Origin: Streptomyces humicola
GTDB taxonomy: Bacteria > Actinomycetota > Actinomycetes > Streptomycetales > Streptomycetaceae
Assembly (NCBI RefSeq): GCF_024436035.1
Contig: NZ_JANFNG010000041.1
Coordinates: forward strand, 1-52,136
Length of the DNA stretch: 52,136 nt
Reading direction: 5' to 3'
This document shows, piece by piece, positions 357-42,707 of this stretch (its first letter is position 1; every line of letters starts with the position of its first letter). The translations under genes were made by a program, and so were the position numbers. The notes under the pieces are model-generated. The model had not been told where the DNA came from, did not search any database, and worked only from the letters and a program-made list of their open reading frames with translations.

Positions 357-959
357 CTAGGCCGGCCGTCGTTGCACGGCATCGGCGATAACCGCTGTCA
401 CGAGCTTGTTGACGGCTGCCGTGGCCGGCGGGCCGGGGTCGCGGTCGGCGAACAGGAGATGCCCGCCACCAACCAGGGAGAGGGTGAGTGAGTCGATGTC
501 GGCGTCTGCCGCGATACGGCCCAGTTCACGCTCGTCGGCCAGATAAGCGGAGATCGCGGTCGTGGCCTGGGCGAGGATCGCGATGCCGCCTCCGGGCCTG
601 GCTTGCCGCAGCCGTGCGCGCAGCTCGTCCCGGAAGGTGATGAGCGGGATGATTGCCACCGGAATCGGCCCGAACAAGGTGGTCAGCGCGCTGGTGAGGT
701 TGTTGGCCACCGTACCGGTGCCTGCGGACTCCCGCAGCGCACTCGCCTGCGTCTCAAGTTGCGCGGCCCGGTCGAGCACGAGGTCGGTGAGGAAGGCGTC
801 GAAGTCGGCGAAGTGCCGGTGCAGGACGCCTTTGGCGCAGCCCGCCTCATCAGTGACGGCCCGGCTGGTCAGCCCGTTCGGCCCGTCCCGCACAAGCACG
901 CGTTCGGCAGCGTCGAACAGCTGCTGCCGCGCGTCGCGAAGGTGCACCCCAGTCGGCAC
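357..959 (-). CDS. TetR/AcrR-family transcriptional regulator
   Basis: This 200-residue protein has the TetR layout: an N-terminal helix-turn-helix at about residues 20-50 (SRAVTDEAGCAKGVLHRHF) and a divergent helical ligand-binding C-terminus. The start is GTG at 959, preceded by GAGAGGA at good spacing. It is divergent from the methyltransferase at 1030, and the 70-bp gap holds two near-identical palindromes 20 bp apart, so autoregulation and control of the methyltransferase are likely. The effector is unknown. The family assignment is firm; the regulatory role is inferred from context. Confidence 0.85.
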   Translation of the reverse strand: MPTGVHLRDARQQLFDAAERVLVRDGPNGLTSRAVTDEAGCAKGVLHRHFADFDAFLTDLVLDRAAQLETQASALRESAGTGTVANNLTSALTTLFGPIPVAIIPLITFRDELRARLRQARPGGGIAILAQATTAISAYLADERELGRIAADADIDSLTLSLVGGGHLLFADRDPGPPATAAVNKLVTAVIADAVQRRPA

Positions 960-1000
960 TCACAGATCCTCTCGTGCGTCAATCCGCTGAACCGTTGGCC

Positions 1001-1037
1001 AGTGGGCGTACGCCCACTAAGGTGGGCGCATGCCCAC
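1001..1037. promoter_or_regulatory. Tandem palindromic operators between TetR and methyltransferase genes
   Basis: AGTGGGCGTACGCCCACT (1001-1018) is a perfect 18-bp palindrome. GTGGGCGCATGCCCAC (1022-1037) repeats it with changes only in the central four bases. The dyad centres are exactly 20 bp apart, about two helical turns, so two dimers could bind the same DNA face. The second copy covers the ATG at 1030. The obvious ligand is the TetR encoded at 357-959. Confidence 0.7.
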
Positions 1038-1857
1038 TCTACCGCGAGAGCAACCAGAACCGTCCCCGACGGAGCCGCACAAGGCCCGGCGGATGGCCGA
1101 GTCGTTCGGCGCGGACGCGCAACGCTACGACCAAGCCCGGCCCGGCTACCCCGATGCGTTGGTGGCGCGGATCGCCGCCGGAAGCCCCGGGCCCGACGTG
1201 CTCGACGTCGGCTGCGGCACCGGCATCGCAGCCCGCCAGTTCCAGGCCGCCGGCTGCGCCGTGCTCGGCGTCGAGCCCGATGAGCGGATGGCCGACTTCG
1301 CGCGAGCCCGTGGCCTGCAGGTCGAGCTGGCGACCTTCGAAGCTTGGCAGCCGGCCGACCGGACGTTCGACGCGGTCATCGCCGCCCAGTCGTGGCACTG
1401 GGTGGAACCCGTCGCCGGCGCCGTGAAGGCGGCACGCGTGCTACGTCCCGGAGGACGGCTAGCGATCTTCGGACACGTGTACGAGCCGCCTGCCGAGGTG
1501 GCCGAACCGTTCGCCGCTGCCTACCGGCGGGTGGCGCCCGACTCCCCGCTCAACGGCCAACCGGCCCGACGTCCGCTCGACCTCTACCAGGCGGTATACG
1601 CGAAGTTTGCCGACAAGATCCGCGAGACCGAACAGTTCAACGATCCCGAACAGTGGCGATTCGACTGGGAGCAGTCCTACACGCGCGACCAATGGCTGGA
1701 CCTGCTACCCACCACCGGCGGCCTCACCCAACTCCGTCCCGATCAGCTGGCCGACGTACTGGACGCGGTCGGGGCCGCCATCGACTCCCTGGGCGGAGGT
1801 TTCACGATGAACTACACCACCCTGGCAGCGACCGCCGTACGCGCCGACGCCTCCTGA
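1030..1857 (+). CDS. Class I SAM-dependent methyltransferase
   Basis: The 275-residue product carries the SAM-binding motif I VLDVGCGTG at residues 57-65, an acidic residue after the next strand (GVEPDERM, about 80-87) and the conserved RPGYP segment near residue 40 seen in small-molecule methyltransferases of the Methyltransf_11 type. The substrate cannot be told from sequence. The start is uncertain. ATG 1030 has AAGGTGG just upstream but lies inside the second operator. An internal ATG at 1093 (MAESFGADAQRYD) also matches where many homologues begin. The gene is probably repressed by the divergent TetR. Confidence 0.75.
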   Translation: MPTLPREQPEPSPTEPHKARRMAESFGADAQRYDQARPGYPDALVARIAAGSPGPDVLDVGCGTGIAARQFQAAGCAVLGVEPDERMADFARARGLQVELATFEAWQPADRTFDAVIAAQSWHWVEPVAGAVKAARVLRPGGRLAIFGHVYEPPAEVAEPFAAAYRRVAPDSPLNGQPARRPLDLYQAVYAKFADKIRETEQFNDPEQWRFDWEQSYTRDQWLDLLPTTGGLTQLRPDQLADVLDAVGAAIDSLGGGFTMNYTTLAATAVRADAS

Positions 1858-2252
1858 GTCGCACGCCGCTCGCATGCCAGCGGGTTGTCCACCGTCGCGA
1901 GCAGCGGCCGGTCCGCCCTGCCGGACACCAGCAGCTATCGCAGCGAACTCACGGGGTGAGAACGCCAGCTCCGGGCACACCTTGCCGAATGCGTCGCGCA
2001 CGCCGGGGGGTGCGTGGCTCAAGTGCGCGGCGTGATCCAGACATGCAACCGGACGCTCGGCCGATTACTCACCGTCCTCGGCTGATTCGGCTGCCGGCCT
2101 GAGGCACCTCGTGAGCAAGGGCTCCGCCGGCGCGGGGTACTCCCGCTGCCACCATCGCGACACGCACCGACGGAGCCCCTCATCACACAATCCAAGCCCC
2201 GGACGGATCACCCAGCCAGCCACCGGATTGCTCGTCCAGTCGGCCCAGCCTC
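1858..2252. other. Intergenic region, nothing recognised
   Basis: About 395 bases without a convincing gene. Frames on both strands translate to Arg/Pro/Ser-rich sequence with no recognisable motif. It separates a plus-strand methyltransferase from the 3' end of a minus-strand secreted protein, so it should hold converging transcription ends, but no strong terminator hairpin stands out. Confidence 0.4.
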
Positions 2253-2567
2253 CTACAAGCCGCCCAGCCCGTTGCCCGACGAGAGCGGGGACTCCTCGGA
2301 GGTGTTATTGGACATCGGGCTGTCCCCGTTGCCCATGGCCGAGCCGCCGTTGTTCTCCGGCTGACGCTGCGGCGTGAGGAACGACTGCGAGCCGTCGCTC
2401 CCGGATCTGTCGAAGGCCCCAGGCATGTTCGGCACCCGGAAGCCCTCCTGGCCGCCCGTCAAACCGCCCATCCCGCCGGGCCCGGGCGGATCGGCCCAGG
2501 CAGCAACTGGGGCAACGGTCAGCATGGCGAGCGTAAGCGAGGCCACGGCCGCGGTCTTGCGAAGCAT
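2253..2567 (-). CDS. Small secreted Gly/Asn/Ser-rich protein
   Basis: The ATG at 2567 is preceded by GGAAGGAA at ideal spacing, giving a 104-residue product. Its N-terminus is a classic Sec signal peptide (MLRKTAAVASLTLAML...) with a likely cleavage after the alanine-rich AAWA near residue 25. The mature part is low in complexity (PPGPGGMGGLTGG, then many Asn, Ser, Gly and Gln), has no cysteine and no recognised domain. An upstream in-frame start at 2630 would spoil the signal peptide and lacks a ribosome binding site. Function unknown; probably exported and intrinsically disordered. Confidence 0.65.
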   Translation of the reverse strand: MLRKTAAVASLTLAMLTVAPVAAWADPPGPGGMGGLTGGQEGFRVPNMPGAFDRSGSDGSQSFLTPQRQPENNGGSAMGNGDSPMSNNTSEESPLSSGNGLGGL

Positions 2568-2934
2568 AATTTTCCTTCCACTACATGCTCTCGGGAAAGG
2601 GCCCCACCCACACGTCGGCAATACGCGCACCAGCGGGACCGTTCATCACACGATCCATCCCACGCCAAGGACACCCGGCCGCACCATCTGACCCCCACGA
2701 GTGACCCCAAGCACCCGAACCGCACAGCCCGAACCCTCCCACCCGGCTTTCTCAAGAAGGAGCCCCGGCTGGGCTTGAGCCTTGACACTGCGTTGGGCCA
2801 GTCACAGCATGGCCGCGGCCGGTTAAGGCACCGGCTGTGCGGGCAGGACCACAGGCGCACGTGCCCGGCCCCGCGCCGTCGGGGGTACCGCAAGTGCTGT
2901 GGCTGCGCCGGGCGGCGGTGCCGCGCATCGCAGT
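2568..2934. other. Intergenic / decayed region
   Basis: The part next to 2567 must hold the promoter of the secreted-protein gene. The rest shows no recognisable gene on either strand and merges into the remnant of a metallo-beta-lactamase-fold gene that begins at about 2935. Confidence 0.35.
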
Positions 2935-3231
2935 CACCACATCCGGTGAGGCGTTGTCCCCGCTGATGTACAGCATCGGCAGCCCGTCCCCGCGCAGCAC
3001 GAAGCCGGTCACCTCCCCAACCAGATGCTCGCTCCCGTCCGGTCCGTGCTGTGCCGGGCGGTGCTGTGCCGGGCCGGCCGGCACGCCCGTGATCCGTACA
3101 CCACCGAGCTCGTACGTGTCCCAGTCAGGCAGCGCCCGATCCGGTCCGCCGAGCAGGCCCGCCGCGACCCGCGCGGACAGGCAATCACCGAGGAGTCCAT
3201 CGCTGGACGCGGCACGATCTGCGGCGTGTGA
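2935..3231 (-). pseudogene. Remnant of a metallo-beta-lactamase-fold hydrolase gene
   Basis: Read in one minus-strand frame from about 3210, the translation runs LLGDCLSARVAAGLL, then ELGGVRITGVPAGPAQH, then GEVTGFVLRGDG, then LPMLYISGDNASPDVV. The last parts resemble the central section of UlaG-like MBL-fold hydrolases, where a xxYxSGDN/T segment provides a metal ligand. No start codon or N-terminal HxHxDH motif is present, and similarity stops at about 2935 where the frame turns Arg/Thr-rich. It abuts a truncated TetR fragment, so this looks like a gene lacking both ends. Confidence 0.55.
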
Positions 3232-3660
3232 CTACTGAGGACCGGCGGGCGGGCGCCCCGGCAGCCGTGCCTGGACGCTGTCCAGCAGCAGCTCCAGCGC
3301 CAGCCGATAGGAGCTGCGGCCCATGTCCGCGGTGAGCAGGTCGGCGGTGGCGGCGATGTTCGGGTGCGTCGCGGCCGGGAGCCGGGCGTAGGTCTGCTCC
3401 CACACCGCGGCGTCCGCCGACCGCGCCGCGACGGGCAGCGCCGCCGAGGCGGTGTCCAGTGCCGCGAAGGCCAGGGCCTGGTCGACAAAGGCATGGTAGA
3501 TCCGGGCCGCCATCGGATCGGGGAAGCCCGCACCACGCAGCACGCCGAGGATCGTCTCCACAGCGGCGATCTCGTGCTCCCGGCCGGCAACCCGGTATGC
3601 GGCGAGGAGCGCCGCGTGCGGGTGGTCTCGGTAGGTGGCCTGGATGCGCAGCCCTGCTGC
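3232..3660 (-). pseudogene. C-terminal fragment of a TetR-family regulator
   Basis: An open frame from about 3660 to the stop at 3232 encodes roughly 142 residues (AAGLRIQATYRDHPHAALL... to ...LLLDSVQARL). They read as the all-helical C-terminal domain of a TetR regulator, including the typical AARIYHAFVDQALAFAAL helix. The N-terminal helix-turn-helix is missing: upstream of 3660 the DNA instead encodes, on the opposite strand, part of an amidohydrolase. The methionine at 3561 is internal to the domain and is unlikely to be a true start. Broken gene with a clean junction near 3660. Confidence 0.6.
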
Positions 3661-37097: not shown

Positions 37098-39638
37098 TTA
37101 CGCCGTCGGGTCCTCGTGGTCCAGGTCGACGTCGAACCCTTCCAGGCCGGCGCCGTCCAGGCGGAGCGGCGTGGCCACGGGGGCGTAGCCGCTGGCGATG
37201 ACCGTGTATTCGCCGGCGGCGAGGTCCGTGAAGCCGTACTCGCCGTCGGTGCCCGTCGTGGACGTGGAGACCACGTTGCCTCCGGCGTCGACCAGGGTGA
37301 CCTGGGCGTCGTCGAGCGGCTTGCCGGTGGTGCTGCGGACCACGCCGCGGACGCGGGCGCCGGGCTCCAGGCGGATCTCGTAGTGGCCGGGGATGCCGCT
37401 GTTGACCTCGACCGGGAGGGCCGCCGGGCGGTGGCCGGCCGCGCTCACCGCGAGGGTGTACGAGCCCGGGACCAGGTCGGTGAAGCCGAAGCCGCCGTCG
37501 AGGCTGGATGCGCCGGAGGCGATGACCTCGCCGCGCACGTCGGTGGCGACCACCAGCGCGCCCGGCAGCGGGTCGCCGCCCGCCGCGTCGCGCACCGCGC
37601 CCGTCAGGCCGGCCGTGCCGCCGAGCACGAGGTCGAGCTCGACGGGGGCGTCGCCCACGACCACGGTCGCCGCCTGCGGCTTGCGTGCTCCGGCGGAGCC
37701 GATCAGGACGTAGGTGCCCGCGGCGGTGGCGTCCACCGCGTACCGGCCGCTCTCGTCGGCCGTCGTACGGCCGAGCTGCCTGCCCGCGACGTCGATCAGG
37801 GTGACGACGGCCTGCGGAACGGGCGCTCCCGTGCCGTCGAGCACATGGCCGCCGATGACGCTGCGCGCGGTGCCGTTGACGTGGTCGAGCACGGCCGTGG
37901 CCGCCGCAGGGGCGGCTGCCGGTGCCGCGTCGGCAGGGGCGCCCTGCGTGTTCTCCGCCGCGCGTGCCTCCAGGCCGGAGACCTTGCGCAGCGGCACCTC
38001 CTTGGTCCACAGCGCGACGAGGAAGCCCAGGGCGATCACGACGGCGCCGAGCACGAAGACCACGTGCATGGCGTCGGTGAAGCCCACCTTGAACGGTTCT
38101 GCGAGGCGCGGGTCGAGGTGCTGGATGAACGACGAGTCGTTGAGCACGCCGGAGGCCGCGCCGCCGCCCGCCGAGGGGTGCTTGATCATCTCGAGCACGG
38201 GGGCGTTGGCCGGGTTGGAGATGACGGCCGGGTCGTGCACCGCCGCCTGGAAGTCGGCGGTCGGGACGGCGGCCCGGAAGGCGGAGCCGATCTTCGTGGT
38301 CACGTTGCTGAACAGCACGGAGAGGAAGATCGCCGTACCGGCCGTGGCGCCCATCTGCCGGAAGAACGTGGCCGACGCGGTCGCGACGCCCATGTCCTTG
38401 GGTTCGACGGCGTTCTGCACCGCGAGGGTGAGGATCTGCATGCAGGCGCCGAGGCCGATGCCGAACAGCGCCATGTAGGCCATGGTCTCCGGCAGCGCGG
38501 TGTTCCACTGGATCCGGTAGTGGAACAGGAGCATGGCCGCTGTGATCAGGGCGGTGCCGATGACCGGGAAGATCTTGTAGTGGCCGGTCTTGGAGATGAT
38601 CCGCCCGACGACCATGGTGCCGGCGATCATTCCGATCATCAGCGGCAGCATCAGCAGGCCGGACTTGGTGGGGCTGACGCCCTTGACGATCTGCAGGTAG
38701 AGCGGGATCAGCAGCAGGCCGCCGAACATGCCCATGCCGACGAGCACGGAGAGCACGCTGGTCTTGGAGAAGACGGCGCTGCGGAAGAGCCGCATCGGGA
38801 TGAGCGCGTCGTCGCCCATCGCCCGCTCGACGAAGACCCAGACGATCAGGCCGACGGCGCCGATGGCGTAGCAGATGACGGCCTTCGTCGAGGTCCAGCC
38901 CCAGCTCTGGCCCTGCTCGGCGACGAGCAGCAGCGGCACCACGCCGATGGCGATGGTGACCGCGCCCCACCAGTCGATGCGACGGTCACGCCGGGTGTGC
39001 GGAAGATTGAGCACCCTGGCGACGACGAACAGCGCGATGATGCCGACCGGCACGTTGACGAGGAAGACCCAGCGCCAGCCGGTGATCGACAGGATGCTGC
39101 TCTGGCCGGCGAGGAAGCCGCCGATGAGCGGGCCGATGACGCTGGAGGAGCCGAACATGGCGAGCATGTAGCCCTGGTATCGGGCGCGCTCACGCGGCGG
39201 CACGATGTCGCCGATGATCGCGAGCGCCAGCGACATCAGGCCGCCGGCGCCGATGCCCTGGAAGGCACGGAAGCCGGCGAGTTCGGTCATCGAGGTGGAG
39301 AAGGAGCAGGCCGCCGAGCCGACGACGAAGATGGTGATCGCCGCGAGGAAGAACGGCTTGCGTCCGTAGAGGTCGGACAGCTTGCCGTACAGCGGCGTCG
39401 CGATCGTCGAGGTGATCAGGTACGCCGTGGTGACCCAGGCCTGCGAGCTGAGGCCGTGCAGGTCGTCGGCTATGGTACGGATCGACGTACTGACGATGGT
39501 CTGGTCGAGGGCCGCCAGGAACATCCCCAGCATCAGGCCGCTGAGGATGGTCAGGATCTGGCGGTGGGTCAGCCGGCCTCCCGAGTCGGGTATCGCCGCC
39601 GTTCCCCCGCGTGTCGGGGACGCTGCCGTGCTGCTCAT
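37098..39638 (-). CDS. DHA2-type MFS exporter fused to carboxypeptidase-regulatory-like repeats
   Basis: ATG 39638, preceded by AAGGAG, gives 846 residues. Residues 1 to about 550 form a 14-helix EmrB/QacA-type drug:H+ antiporter: LAALDQTIVSTSIRTIADDL in helix 1 and GKLSDLYGRKPFFL between helices 2 and 3 are the DHA2 signatures. From about residue 590 come three tandem beta-sandwich repeats of the CarboxypepD_reg/SdrB type (GGHVLDGTGAPVPQAVVTLI, GAVRDAAGGDPLPGALVVAT, GVVRSTTGKPLDDAQVTLVD). The last helix before them suggests a cytoplasmic tail, although such domains are usually extracellular. It is translationally coupled (ATGA) to the MarR gene. Confidence 0.87.
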   Translation of the reverse strand: MSSTAASPTRGGTAAIPDSGGRLTHRQILTILSGLMLGMFLAALDQTIVSTSIRTIADDLHGLSSQAWVTTAYLITSTIATPLYGKLSDLYGRKPFFLAAITIFVVGSAACSFSTSMTELAGFRAFQGIGAGGLMSLALAIIGDIVPPRERARYQGYMLAMFGSSSVIGPLIGGFLAGQSSILSITGWRWVFLVNVPVGIIALFVVARVLNLPHTRRDRRIDWWGAVTIAIGVVPLLLVAEQGQSWGWTSTKAVICYAIGAVGLIVWVFVERAMGDDALIPMRLFRSAVFSKTSVLSVLVGMGMFGGLLLIPLYLQIVKGVSPTKSGLLMLPLMIGMIAGTMVVGRIISKTGHYKIFPVIGTALITAAMLLFHYRIQWNTALPETMAYMALFGIGLGACMQILTLAVQNAVEPKDMGVATASATFFRQMGATAGTAIFLSVLFSNVTTKIGSAFRAAVPTADFQAAVHDPAVISNPANAPVLEMIKHPSAGGGAASGVLNDSSFIQHLDPRLAEPFKVGFTDAMHVVFVLGAVVIALGFLVALWTKEVPLRKVSGLEARAAENTQGAPADAAPAAAPAAATAVLDHVNGTARSVIGGHVLDGTGAPVPQAVVTLIDVAGRQLGRTTADESGRYAVDATAAGTYVLIGSAGARKPQAATVVVGDAPVELDLVLGGTAGLTGAVRDAAGGDPLPGALVVATDVRGEVIASGASSLDGGFGFTDLVPGSYTLAVSAAGHRPAALPVEVNSGIPGHYEIRLEPGARVRGVVRSTTGKPLDDAQVTLVDAGGNVVSTSTTGTDGEYGFTDLAAGEYTVIASGYAPVATPLRLDGAGLEGFDVDLDHEDPTA

Positions 39639-40201
39639 GCGTGCTTTTCTCCTTGCTCCACCGCGGTGCCGGAGTGCGGCCCGGCGCCGAGGTGCCCGTG
39701 TGTGAAGTCCACCAAGTCGTCGTTGAGGCGCGTCATCAGCCGGATGAGCTGATAACGGTCCTCGGGCGACCAGGACGCGAGAAGCGCCCCGAGCTCGGCG
39801 TCGCGCTGACGCCGGAACTCCATGTACGTCTCGTGTCCTGCGTCGGTCGCGGTCAGCAGGTAACCGCGCCGGTCCTCCGGGTCCGGGCGGCGCTCGACCA
39901 GGCCACGCTCGACGAGCGAGCGCACCTGACGACTGACCGTCGACAGGTCGAGGAAGGCCTCGGCCGCCAGGTCGGTCGCCCGCCGGGCTCCGTCCGTCAC
40001 CAGGCGCGCCAGCAGAATGCGCTCGGCCGCGCCCGGCTCGTTCTTGGCCCGGTGCTTCCATGCGGCCATGAGCCGGCTGAACCGAACGATCTCGATTCCC
40101 AGGCCGGCGCCGGCCTCCTCGGCGGTGGCGGTGCCTACGGGGGCCGCGCCGGACCCGTGCCCGGTCTTCCCTCCGTTGTCATGGACCGTCCCCTTGCCCA
40201 T
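39635..40201 (-). CDS. MarR-family regulator of the adjacent exporter
   Basis: ATG 40201, after GGGGGAGGCGGAG, gives 188 residues. The winged helix spans ILLARLVTDGARRATDLAAE, FLDLSTVSRQVRSLVERGLV and RRPDPEDRRGYLLTATDAG, whose D-x-R-G wing is diagnostic of MarR. A disordered 35-residue N-terminus precedes it. Being first in an operon with a multidrug-type exporter, it most likely represses both and releases on binding the exported compound. A weak inverted repeat CTTG-N7-CAAG at 40251-40265 could be its operator. Confidence 0.88.
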   Translation of the reverse strand: MGKGTVHDNGGKTGHGSGAAPVGTATAEEAGAGLGIEIVRFSRLMAAWKHRAKNEPGAAERILLARLVTDGARRATDLAAEAFLDLSTVSRQVRSLVERGLVERRPDPEDRRGYLLTATDAGHETYMEFRRQRDAELGALLASWSPEDRYQLIRLMTRLNDDLVDFTHGHLGAGPHSGTAVEQGEKHA

Positions 40202-40391
40202 CACGCTCCGCCTCCCCCTCGCCCGTGCTTGCCACCCGGATACTTCGTTGCTTGCATCCACCAAGTTATCACACCCGCGGCGCAGACAGCGCCCACGACC
40301 CCGGACTCCCGTTGCCCGGCCTGCGGCGACCGGGCATAGACTCGAACCCGCTATGCCCTCGGTCGGGGCGCGGAGCAGGAAGTTGGTGTCC

Positions 40392-41333
40392 ATGAGCGGG
40401 GAATGGACGGGGGCCGGGCTGCCCCCGGTGGCGGCCGCACGCATCGACGAGTTGCGCCGCAGCGGCACCTGGTCCTCGGCGCTGTCGACCGGCGAGTTCG
40501 CCGCACTGCGCGCCGTGGGGTTCGAACCGGTGGGCCAGGTGATGGGCTCCGCCGTCTACCACGTGGGCCGCAGCGGGCGGTACTGGGGCTACCACGACTG
40601 CCTCTACGCGGGCGCGCGCTACGCCTTCGCGGGCTCGTACGCGCACGTCGCTCTCTCCGGGCGCGGCGCCCCGTCGGCCGGACTGGTCCAGGTGCTCGAC
40701 CAAGCGCGCCGCGCCGCCCTCGAGCGGATGACCGCGGAGTGCTCGGCGCTCGGCGGCGACGGCGTCGTCGCGGCGCAGCTGACCGTGGCGCCCTTCGTGG
40801 CGCAGCCGAACTGCCTGGAGTTCAAGGTGATCGGCACCGCGGTGCGGGCGGCCGGGACGGTGCGGGCGTCGCATCCGTTCACCTGCCACCTCGACGGCCA
40901 GGGGTTCGCGAAGCTGGTGACCGCGGGATGGGTGCCCGTGGAGCTGCTGTACGGGATGTCCGTCGGCGTGCGCCACGACGACTTCGGCACCCGCGCGCAG
41001 ACGCGTTCATGGAACAACACCGAGGTCAGCGGCTGGAGCGACCTGGTGCAGGCAGTGCGCTCCGACGCCCGTGCACACCTGCGGGCGCAGAGCGGCCGAC
41101 GAGGCGGGGACGGCGCGATCCTCTCCGCCGGCGACCTGCGCATCTGGCACGAGTCCTGTATGCGCAGCGGCAACAACGAGCAGGAGGACCACGTGGCCGA
41201 GGCCACGCTGGTGGGCACCACCGTCGCCCGCTTCACCGCGAGCAAGCAGCCGCCGCGCACGCTCACGGTCATGCCGCTCGACCCGGAACGCAGGCGCCGG
41301 GCCATGCGCCGTACCGCCACCGAGATGCGATGA
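40392..41333 (+). CDS. Protein with two divergent YbjQ-like (UPF0145) domains
   Basis: ATG 40392 gives 313 residues. Two copies of a YbjQ-type module are visible at about 27-155 and 162-283. The first has ALSTGEFAALRAVGFEPVGQ, VMGSAVYHVG, QARRAALERMTAECSALGGD and VIGTAVRA. The second has FTCHLDGQGFAKLVTAGWVP, VELLYGMSVGV and ATLVGTTVARF. YbjQ forms pentameric barrels and is listed as a putative heavy-metal-binding fold, but this copy lacks an obvious metal-binding Cys/His set. It heads a three-gene unit; the next gene is a clearer two-copy homologue. Confidence 0.75.
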   Translation: MSGEWTGAGLPPVAAARIDELRRSGTWSSALSTGEFAALRAVGFEPVGQVMGSAVYHVGRSGRYWGYHDCLYAGARYAFAGSYAHVALSGRGAPSAGLVQVLDQARRAALERMTAECSALGGDGVVAAQLTVAPFVAQPNCLEFKVIGTAVRAAGTVRASHPFTCHLDGQGFAKLVTAGWVPVELLYGMSVGVRHDDFGTRAQTRSWNNTEVSGWSDLVQAVRSDARAHLRAQSGRRGGDGAILSAGDLRIWHESCMRSGNNEQEDHVAEATLVGTTVARFTASKQPPRTLTVMPLDPERRRRAMRRTATEMR

Positions 41334-41357
41334 GAATCCGATGAGGGGAACCCGTTC

Positions 41358-42218
41358 ATGACCGTCTTCAACCCCGCCGATGGCACACCTGACGGTGCCC
41401 CCGCCCAGGGCGTGCCGGCCGACGCGATGCGGCGACTGGCCGAGCTGCAGCCGGGCAAGCCGGGTTCGATCTTCACAAGCGACCTGTCGGTCAACGAGTT
41501 CCTGCTGGTGCGCGAGGCGGGGTTCAGGCCGATCGGCCTGGTGCTCGGCTCCTCGATCTACCATGTGGGCATCCAGCTGGGCCGCTGGGGCAAGAACCAG
41601 GAGCTGACCACGCTCAGCCAGGCGATGTACCACGCGCGCGAGCTGGCGATGACCCGCATGGAGGCGGAAGCGGCGCAGCTGGACGCGGACGGCATCGTTG
41701 GCGTACGGCTCACCGTCGAGGCGCGTGAATTCGGCAGCGACATCGCGGAGTTCATCGCGGTCGGCACCGCGGTCAAGGCCGACGAACCGGCGCCGGGCGG
41801 CAGCGGCGGGAGCTGGCGCAACCTCAAGGGCCAGCCGTTCACCTCGGACCTCAACGGCCAGGACTTCTGGACGCTCATCCGCGCCGGATACGCACCGCTC
41901 GGCATGGTGATGGGCACCTGCGTCTACCACATCGCGCACCAGCGAATGGGGCAGATGTTCTCCAACCTCGGCAAGAACGTGGAGATCGAGCAGTTCACGC
42001 AGGCGCTGTACGACGCACGTGAGCTGGCGATGGAGCGGATGCAGCACGAGGCGGAGGAGCTGCAGGCGGAGGGGATCGTCGGCGTCCAGCTCAACGCGCA
42101 CAACCACCGCTGGGGCGGTCACACCACCGAGTTCTTCGCCATCGGCACGGCCGTGCGGCCGCTGCGCGAGGACCACGTCATCGAGCGTCCGACGATGGTG
42201 CTCAGCCTGGACGGCTGA
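41358..42218 (+). CDS. Tandem YbjQ-domain (heavy-metal-binding fold) protein
   Basis: The 286-residue product carries two well-kept YbjQ modules. The first runs FTSDLSVNEFLLVREAGFRP, IGLVLGSSIYHVG, ARELAMTRMEAEAAQLDADG and IVGVRLTVEAREFG to AVGTAVKA. The second runs FTSDLNGQDFWTLIRAGYAP, LGMVMGTCVYHIA, ARELAMERMQHEAEELQAEG and IVGVQLNAHNHRWG to AIGTAVRP. Single-domain YbjQ proteins are common; duplicated ones are an actinobacterial variation. Cellular role unknown. It lies 24 bp after its paralogue and 51 bp before a 145-codon gene. Confidence 0.85.
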   Translation: MTVFNPADGTPDGAPAQGVPADAMRRLAELQPGKPGSIFTSDLSVNEFLLVREAGFRPIGLVLGSSIYHVGIQLGRWGKNQELTTLSQAMYHARELAMTRMEAEAAQLDADGIVGVRLTVEAREFGSDIAEFIAVGTAVKADEPAPGGSGGSWRNLKGQPFTSDLNGQDFWTLIRAGYAPLGMVMGTCVYHIAHQRMGQMFSNLGKNVEIEQFTQALYDARELAMERMQHEAEELQAEGIVGVQLNAHNHRWGGHTTEFFAIGTAVRPLREDHVIERPTMVLSLDG

Positions 42219-42269
42219 GGCCCCGACCCAGCAGACTTGAAGCGACCACACACCACGAGAGGCCCCGCG

Positions 42270-42707
42270 ATGACCTCGCCGCACGACCCCGTCCCGTTCG
42301 AGCCCGGCGGGGAGGCAGACTCCATCGACGTGCTGACCGCCGCGCTGCGCAGGGACGCCGCCGATCTGGAGGTGTACGCCCAGGTGCTCACCGGCACGCT
42401 GTCGGACGCGCTGCCGCCCGGCTCGGTCGCCGTCGAGCGCAAGCGCGGCATGGCCGACCGCCTCGCGGGGCGGGAGGGCCGGGTCGAACGGCTGGAGGTC
42501 TTCCTCGGCGAGCAGCGCCTTGTGCTGAATCTGGCGAGCGGACATCCCAAGGGCGAGGTGTGCAAGGAGGTCCGCGGGGTGGTGCTGTCCCGGCGCCCGG
42601 TGGCGCTCGACGAATGGGTGCGGGAGCTCGCGGGCGCGGTCGCGGCGCGCGCGCAGTCGGACGCACGGGCGCGGGCTGCGCTGGAGCGGCTGGTGCTCGG
42701 GGAGTAG
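42270..42707 (+). CDS. Conserved hypothetical protein, third gene of the YbjQ unit
   Basis: ATG 42270, after GAGAGG, gives 145 residues, alpha-helical in character. A coiled-coil-like N-terminal helix (SIDVLTAALRRDAADLEVYA, then QVLTGTLSDALPPG) is followed by SVAVERKRGMADRLAGREGR and a beta-rich part (RLEVFLGEQRLVLNLASGHP, then GEVCKEVRGVVLSRRPVALD). This last motif recurs in small actinobacterial proteins found next to YbjQ-type genes, to my recollection. No signal peptide or membrane helix. Function unknown. Confidence 0.7.
   Translation: MTSPHDPVPFEPGGEADSIDVLTAALRRDAADLEVYAQVLTGTLSDALPPGSVAVERKRGMADRLAGREGRVERLEVFLGEQRLVLNLASGHPKGEVCKEVRGVVLSRRPVALDEWVRELAGAVAARAQSDARARAALERLVLGE

Follow-up and report, generated by a model that had tools for sequence, protein, structure and literature searches.

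Tandem YbjQ proteins and a small co-inherited partner: a candidate multi-subunit machine of the Actinomycetota

The YbjQ proteins form an orphan superfamily, with structures publicly available from 2005 on, by their release dates, and with members in 10 of 14 control genomes. Single-domain YbjQ proteins crystallize as pentamers, one of which has subunits in alternative folds (PMC2954204, PMC4092069). No established function for the family was found in the accessible portions of the literature examined, and in those of PMC5198076 and PMC10434189 YbjQ is merely named in tables. A thiamin-phosphate synthase activity credited to 'YbjQ' in the accessible text of PMC7084401 was set aside; it is probably a property of the unrelated YjbQ family. 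Here we analyze a stretch of 52,136 nucleotides from Streptomyces humicola (contig NZ_JANFNG010000041.1; the window in what follows), drawn from an assembly of 7.07 Mb in 78 contigs that its closest relatives place in the Streptomycetaceae. The window carries three co-oriented genes, hereafter g1, g2 and g3. The first two each code for a pair of YbjQ modules in one chain, and the third for a small protein of a different kind. The three are so faithfully co-inherited across genomes that, judging from comparative sequence analysis, they probably constitute one unstudied cytoplasmic protein machine.

The unit lies at 40392-42707 of the window on the forward strand, where a preliminary description of this DNA had placed it, and both its existence and these coordinates proved right. 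g1 (40392..41333, ATG to stop) codes for a tandem-YbjQ protein of 313 amino acids (aa), g2 (41358..42218, ATG to stop) for a second tandem-YbjQ protein of 286 aa, and g3 (42270..42707, ATG to stop) for a small soluble alpha/beta protein of 145 aa, the intergenic gaps being 24 and 51 bases. The N module of g1 (40470..40856, + strand; residues ~27-155), which bears an insertion carrying Cys70, is recognized by the Pfam family PF01906 (YbjQ_1) as a single stretch at residues 92-152 (E 5.5e-9; 37 bits, cut-off 23), and its C module (40869..41246, +; residues ~160-285) is missed by Pfam. In g2 the same profile recovers two stretches (E 5.1e-24; 85.3 bits, curated cut-off 23), corresponding to an N module (41469..41780, +; residues ~38-141), with conserved Tyr68-His69 and Glu131, and a C module (41832..42167, +; residues ~159-270), with conserved Cys188, Tyr190-His191, His194, His255 and Glu258. 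The earlier view that each protein joins one well-kept and one divergent module hence holds for g1 and fails for g2, both of whose modules are Pfam-recognized. The domain match of the first protein is upheld, PF01906 being found at E <= 0.01 in all 62 g1 proteins scanned. The matches in g1 and g2 begin at profile position 18, 44 or 46 of 103, as against a span of mostly 1-102 or 1-103 in single-domain YbjQ loci; with two modules per chain, neither is a full-length single-domain YbjQ protein that includes the N-terminal profile positions. Beyond g1 and g2, no YbjQ match was obtained in the host genome at E <= 0.1.

Profile-profile comparison tied all four modules to one another: 99.9% for the two modules of g2, 99.8% for g1 N with g2 N, 99.6% for g1 N with g2 C, 98.6% for g1 C with g2 C, 97.7% for g1 C with g2 N, and 96.6% for the two modules of g1. 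The predicted structure of g1 (pLDDT 83.4, pTM 0.76) displays a beta-alpha-beta-beta unit in each of its two modules. By VIA-align, module 1 resembles the YbjQ structures 1vr4 (Z 7.8, a middling value for this tool; rmsd 2.6, 75 aligned) and 1y2i (Z 7.0), as well as RcsF, 2y1b (Z 6.2, rmsd 3.9, 81 aligned); module 2 has its best match in DUF74, 3qkb (Z 5.4, again middling; rmsd 3.3, 86 aligned). Foldseek retrieved 1y2i for the g1 model at E 3e-4. By profile-profile comparison and the predicted structure, the second module of g1 is YbjQ-type; taken together, Pfam, the profile comparisons and the g1 model bear out the proposal of two YbjQ modules in each of g1 and g2. The only PHROG match was to a family of unknown function, through the YbjQ modules (E 8.8e-9 for g2 and 0.0096 for g1).

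A tree of 146 modules over 116 columns (17 of 81 rows per gene plus distant rows, leaving out L138, L150, L152 and L166 for g1 and L150, L152 and L166 for g2) has long branches and rough support. In it the N modules of g1 and g2 fall on one side (89/80, rough) and the single-domain YbjQ proteins are set apart (100/99). Because the N modules of the two genes group together, the tandem appears to predate the split between g1 and g2, and the simplest history is probably a module doubling followed by duplication of the gene. A third tandem-YbjQ gene, of the g1 type, follows g2 in six of the close loci (L092, L099, L100, L105, L108 and L112), giving the arrangement g1-g2-g1'.

The linkage of these genes is conserved, as the preliminary description had supposed. 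In the gene-neighborhood survey of 80 named loci, the best of 183 relatives found and thus the close end of the family, g1 is immediately 5' of g2 in every case, and g3 is in the same locus in 58, following g1-g2 in 57 and preceding them in one. In the other 22 loci g3 is outside the locus, six of these having less than 600 bases of data past g2. A whole-genome search for 18 of the 22 (all except L081, L089, L100 and L108) recovered g3 once in 17 genomes, with one absence (G595). For three of the 17 the separation is probably of a trivial kind: in G596 and G597 a contig ends 45 bases from g3, contig breaks being the probable cause, and the g3 of G601 is probably the copy belonging to the full second unit of G050, since the contig coordinates are the same. 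In the remaining 14 genomes g3 is truly elsewhere, at one conserved place, where it adjoins an enoyl-CoA hydratase gene in 14/14 and a Ser/Thr kinase gene in 14/14 by clustering (13/14 by a stricter search), the Pfam names of these neighbors having been checked on representatives only. That hydratase is also found upstream of g1 in nine named loci. As it flanks both g1 and the separate g3, the arrangement points to an ancestral g1-g2-g3 place from which, in one lineage, g1-g2 departed and g3 did not; we read the hydratase as a marker of that shared place and do not claim it as a functional partner. In the lineage in question (L186-L199), the g3 gene beside the kinase gene is often also accompanied by an FHA-domain gene, and genes nearby were read, by eye only, as glycogen metabolism.

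This kinase raises the alternative of a stress-signaling device, in which a tandem YbjQ ring would sense the state of the cell, as RcsF of the same fold does in the envelope, and g3 would relay the signal, perhaps to the kinase beside it in that lineage. Module 1 of g1 indeed has RcsF as one of its best fold matches, the separate g3 stands between the hydratase and kinase genes in all 14 genomes, and Escherichia coli YbjQ rises in a persister-recovery proteome, according to the accessible text of PMC6414554. Nevertheless, the unit proteins display no membrane-like segment, a search with the kinase gave no match in the Streptomyces loci covered, and a common fold proves no function; we consider this alternative unlikely.

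The association extends to whole genomes. Among 200 Streptomycetaceae genomes, g2 is present in 60 (E <= 1e-10) and g3 in 61 (E <= 1e-6), all 60 carriers of g2 having g3 as well. The reading of the third protein as small, conserved and linked is right, and the linkage is tighter than the preliminary description had it. The sole genome with g3 and no g2 (G054) holds only a g3 fragment of 57 codons, and the 16 kb covered there yielded neither a g1 nor a g2 match at E < 0.1. Across 396 genomes of the phylum, g2 was detected in 11, including the genome of the window (E <= 1e-12), and g3 in eight (E <= 1e-3), all eight being among the 11; the seven other carriers of g3 span five families (f38, f41, f53, f59 and f61). 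At most 6 candidates per genome were scored for g2 and 10 for g3 in the phylum, and 12 and 19 in the Streptomycetaceae, so absences in these surveys are not absolute. Gene order varies in the distant genomes: g3-g1-g2 in G412 and G400, the same order in G290 and G382 with a divergent protein at the g1 position that scores slightly nearer to g2, and g3-g2-g1 with a third tandem protein (g1') in G422 and G433. The full unit is also found on two Streptomyces plasmids, and the evidence from outside the Actinomycetota is limited to a decayed g3-g2 remnant on AP018309, a plasmid of the cyanobacterium Aulosira laxa. Because co-occurrence survives both reordering and physical separation, these comparisons mark g2 and g3 as the stable core of the unit and g1 as its variable part, which shifts the emphasis away from the two YbjQ proteins on which the preliminary description had centered.

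A lone g2-like paralogue (L143-L148 and their matches, 53-58% identity) occurs in 16 of the 60 unit-carrying Streptomycetaceae genomes and was listed for none of the 140 unit-less ones (E <= 1e-10, with scoring limited to 12 candidates per genome). Its product might be an additional, optional subunit, or its distribution might simply follow lineage. In two mycobacteria-like genomes (L140 and L141), a g2-like gene that stands alone, with neither g1 nor g3, adjoins a gene of the wax-ester synthase/diacylglycerol acyltransferase type, in differing orientations (by Pfam in L140 and by eye in L141).

The three proteins differ in their rate of change. Identity to relatives at the close loci is 75-96% for g2, 37-86% for g1 and 39-88% for g3, and the ratio of nonsynonymous to synonymous substitution (dN/dS) against six relatives is 0.08-0.12, 0.13-0.32 and 0.07-0.22, respectively. 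From these figures, all three genes are under purifying selection, g2 being extremely conserved and g1 and g3 evolving faster. The alignments comprise 44 of 81 rows for g2, 49 of 59 for g3 and 62 of 81 for g1, most rows left out being near-copies or having overlong starts; L110 (internal stop) and L102 and L106 (g1 frame too long) were dropped from the g1 alignment, the last two still within the 81-row counts, and the g3 of L101 was dropped from that of g3. This conservation bears on a further alternative, namely that the genes are a mobile accessory trait for resistance to stress, toxic compounds or phages, spread as a cassette. The patchy occurrence across the family and the phylum (60/200 and 11/396), the varying flanks, and the copies on two Streptomyces plasmids and, decayed, on a cyanobacterial one are all in its favor. 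On the other hand, g1, g2 and g3 match no PADLOC-DB family at E <= 1, no phage record matches g2, g2 is more conserved than expected for an arms race, and in one lineage g3 keeps to a single, conserved site on the chromosome. A cassette of this kind therefore seems to us an improbable account. A defense system was likewise rejected as a candidate, there being no PADLOC match and no phage-record match to g2; a scan of viral contigs with g2 gave 47 pattern matches and 0 relatives.

g3 is not a YbjQ protein, as its profile scores below 1% against all four YbjQ modules. We found no convincing family for it in Pfam, NCBIfam, PHROGs or PADLOC, nor among Protein Data Bank (PDB) sequences; when 49 relatives were compared with Pfam, nine names appeared at E <= 1, each in three members or fewer, the best being DUF3322 (E 0.0067, a single member). 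Its predicted structure (pLDDT 79.5) runs alpha-alpha-beta-alpha-beta-beta-beta-beta-alpha, and ten residues are invariant across 49 rows (D32, R59, D63, G67, R68, G70, L86, R108, W116 and L120). The best Foldseek match has an E value of 0.091, and VIA-align rows are tied among unrelated folds with a best Z of 5.5: yeast frataxin (Z 5.4, rmsd 3.7, 82 aligned) stands level with a chain of 8cx0 (5.5) and UvrB rows (5.0-5.3). g3 may have a fold of its own, although these searches do not establish a new one.

With a predicted pI of 9.5 for g1 and 5.2 for g2, and no transmembrane-like stretch in g1 or membrane-like hydrophobic stretch in any of the unit proteins (highest 19-residue mean 1.37 in a hydropathy scan), the products look soluble. 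The pentamers formed by YbjQ proteins and the joint retention of the genes make a hetero-oligomer plausible, and we tentatively propose, from fold and conservation, a soluble assembly built on YbjQ rings with g3 as an obligate partner. Since one ring of five cannot be closed by chains that each contribute an even number of modules, the N and C modules of each tandem protein would lie in two separate, stacked five-membered rings. g2 would form the conserved core ring, g1 would be a faster-evolving second ring subunit, and g3 would dock on the ring and be required for function. The assembly could be a body that binds small molecules or metal and senses or buffers them, rather than a compartment shell.

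A shell had been suggested earlier, on the ground that pentameric barrels joined in tandem could build a larger hetero-oligomeric one. Of that suggestion, the hetero-oligomer stands as plausible and the larger shell is unsupported: the proteins look soluble and, by homology, ring-forming, and five-fold rings alone make no shell. A closed shell or microcompartment of YbjQ proteins housing g3 or other cargo would fit the tandem pentameric modules and the retention of three subunits together. Still, a Pfam search at E <= 10, filtered so that most matches above 0.1 are discarded, listed no shell family for any of the three proteins; across the 80 loci, no cargo enzyme or other family is a general neighbor of the genes; no hexamer-forming partner was seen; and g2 and g3 occur alone in G278. 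We regard a shell as most improbable.

Within the proposed rings, a candidate ligand or metal site may lie at the rims of the C modules, where the end of strand 1 would meet the start of strand 3; it would comprise His191/His194 with His255/Glu258 in g2, and His195 with His267/Glu270 in g1. In a survey of 108 g2-type rows, 27 of them distant (one genome being counted twice), the polar residues kept include Y68-H69, E131, C188, Y190-H191, H194, H255 and E258, and the distant rows retain H255 and H69 in 25/27 each, H191 and C188 in 23/27 each, and H194 in 20/27. The counterparts in the C module of g1 are His195, invariant in 62 rows, and His267 and Glu270, each in at least 90%. In module 2 of the g1 model, strand 1 terminates at H195 and strand 3 begins close to H267; the sheet order of this fold is 1-3-2, which would make these two points adjacent. 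In the 17 single-domain YbjQ sequences compared, which are those of 28 loci tried that could be cleanly excised by pattern, the share of His or Cys does not reach one half in any column. The His/Glu conservation and the absence of such His/Cys columns are the sole basis on which we put forward the site, somewhat speculatively, as a candidate, the exact ligand being a guess; the conserved His and Cys of g2 are no more than compatible with the 'heavy metal-binding' label of the family.

Several observations count against this picture. The Fisher p of 9e-51 for the co-occurrence of g2 and g3 in the Streptomycetaceae is uncorrected for shared ancestry. The other three of the 11 g2 genomes of the phylum belong to one genus with a lone g2-like gene and neither g1 nor g3, implying that a tandem YbjQ protein can act alone, and in G278 g3 lies ~39 kb from g2 and a separate g1 was not found. 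The g3 matches of G400, G045 and G069 have an internal stop codon, and in G140 (L231, ~950-3640) ~2.2 kb of other sequence interrupts g3, the g2 of that genome being partial and at a contig end; some of these copies may be decaying or mis-sequenced. As to the site, some single-domain YbjQ proteins also have a Glu at its position, the His may be conserved for structural reasons, and among the recurrent neighbors in the 80 loci we noticed none for metal transport or metal resistance. The solo g2-like proteins would also suit a reading in which two independent homo-oligomers and an unrelated small protein merely travel together; as the membership of the unit outlasts gene reordering and physical separation, we hold this to be quite unlikely. 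On balance, we retain, as a tentative proposal, an obligate and hitherto undescribed multi-subunit machine of the Actinomycetota, with a decayed copy in a cyanobacterium, that g2 and g3 would form, usually together with g1; it would comprise a two-tier tandem-YbjQ ring, a His/Glu ligand site and the partner g3.

At the level of expression, GAGGGGA (41343..41349, +), read directly and ending 8 bases before the g2 start, is the likely ribosome-binding site of g2, and GAGAGG (42257..42262, +), ending 7 bases before the g3 start, that of g3. Because of the latter, the ATG at 42270 is the likelier start of g3 than the upstream TTG at 42237. A promoter-like element, GGGCATAGACTC (40332..40343, +), lies ~50 bases upstream of g1; it is mostly preserved in an alignment of the window with 11 close relatives (12 rows), which is weak evidence. 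In the upstream regions of 81 loci, none of the SigR, SigB, sigma-70, SigE, LexA and Zur-type sites rose above one shuffled control (SigB 19 vs 22, SigR 1 vs 2, others 0). By Pfam, the unit is flanked on one side by a divergent MarR/major facilitator superfamily (MFS) pair and on the other by a convergent gene of the FAD-dependent monooxygenase type. No flanking gene is generally conserved in the 80 loci, the commonest family occurring in 14; the flanks that recur by lineage are an M24 peptidase (14/80), an MFS transporter (12/80) and the enoyl-CoA hydratase (9/80), and genes read by eye only as sugar-phosphate metabolism flank 9/80. The MFS transporter gene of the window (37101-39650, - strand), which adjoins the MarR regulator and is divergent from g1-g2-g3, codes for a C-terminal part with three carboxypeptidase-regulatory-like stretches (Pfam), to our knowledge an unusual fusion for an efflux pump.

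If the proposal holds, the YbjQ superfamily, an orphan one, would gain through this unit a first defined molecular partner. A tandem YbjQ protein tied to a specific partner gives a testable handle, consisting of the binding partner and the candidate ligand residues, and the naturally separated, reordered and decayed copies of the unit are also useful for study. The automatic labels, 'heavy metal-binding' and 'hypothetical', have hidden a conserved multi-gene system. On the plasmids of Streptomyces sp. NBC_01294 and NBC_01276, the pairs of 'Heavy metal-binding domain-containing protein' belong to the same three-gene unit, with a g2 of ~75% identity, and the records say no more than the domain name and 'hypothetical protein'.

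The closest described systems resemble the unit in fold and differ from it in architecture. The core fold of YbjQ is shared with RcsF and DUF1471/YhcN, and the Pediococcus DUF74 protein 3qkb, the best fold match of g1 module 2, is a pentamer (PMC4092069); it is a single domain, unlike the tandem g1, and the accessible text of that paper does not mention a partner. RcsF is an outer-membrane lipoprotein, whereas g1 and g2 are tandem proteins that look soluble, with no hydrophobic N-terminus of the secreted-lipoprotein kind (hydropathy scan and sequence). Dodecins are 12-meric flavin binders with a beta-alpha-beta-beta subunit. The similarity of dodecin 2cif to g1 module 2 is weak (Z 3.8 over 59 residues), and g1 and g2 carry no evidence of flavin binding. 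No description of a tandem YbjQ unit was found in the titles and abstract starts of the papers listed for the YbjQ family, most subscription papers being outside this scope. The nearest relatives remain the YbjQ/UPF0145 proteins themselves (PF01906; 1y2i, 1vr4, 2gtc), whose fold and sequence the modules share by Pfam, PDB profile search, Foldseek and VIA-align. These are single domains of ~105 aa, as against two modules per chain and a fixed partner in g1 and g2; in the latter, a longer, helix-like stretch ahead of strand 1 replaces the usual N-terminal segment, and the His and Cys kept in g2 are not conserved in the 17 single-domain sequences. The YbjQ modules are those of a known superfamily, and their arrangement as a tandem pair with a fixed partner is a variant of it that we have not found described.

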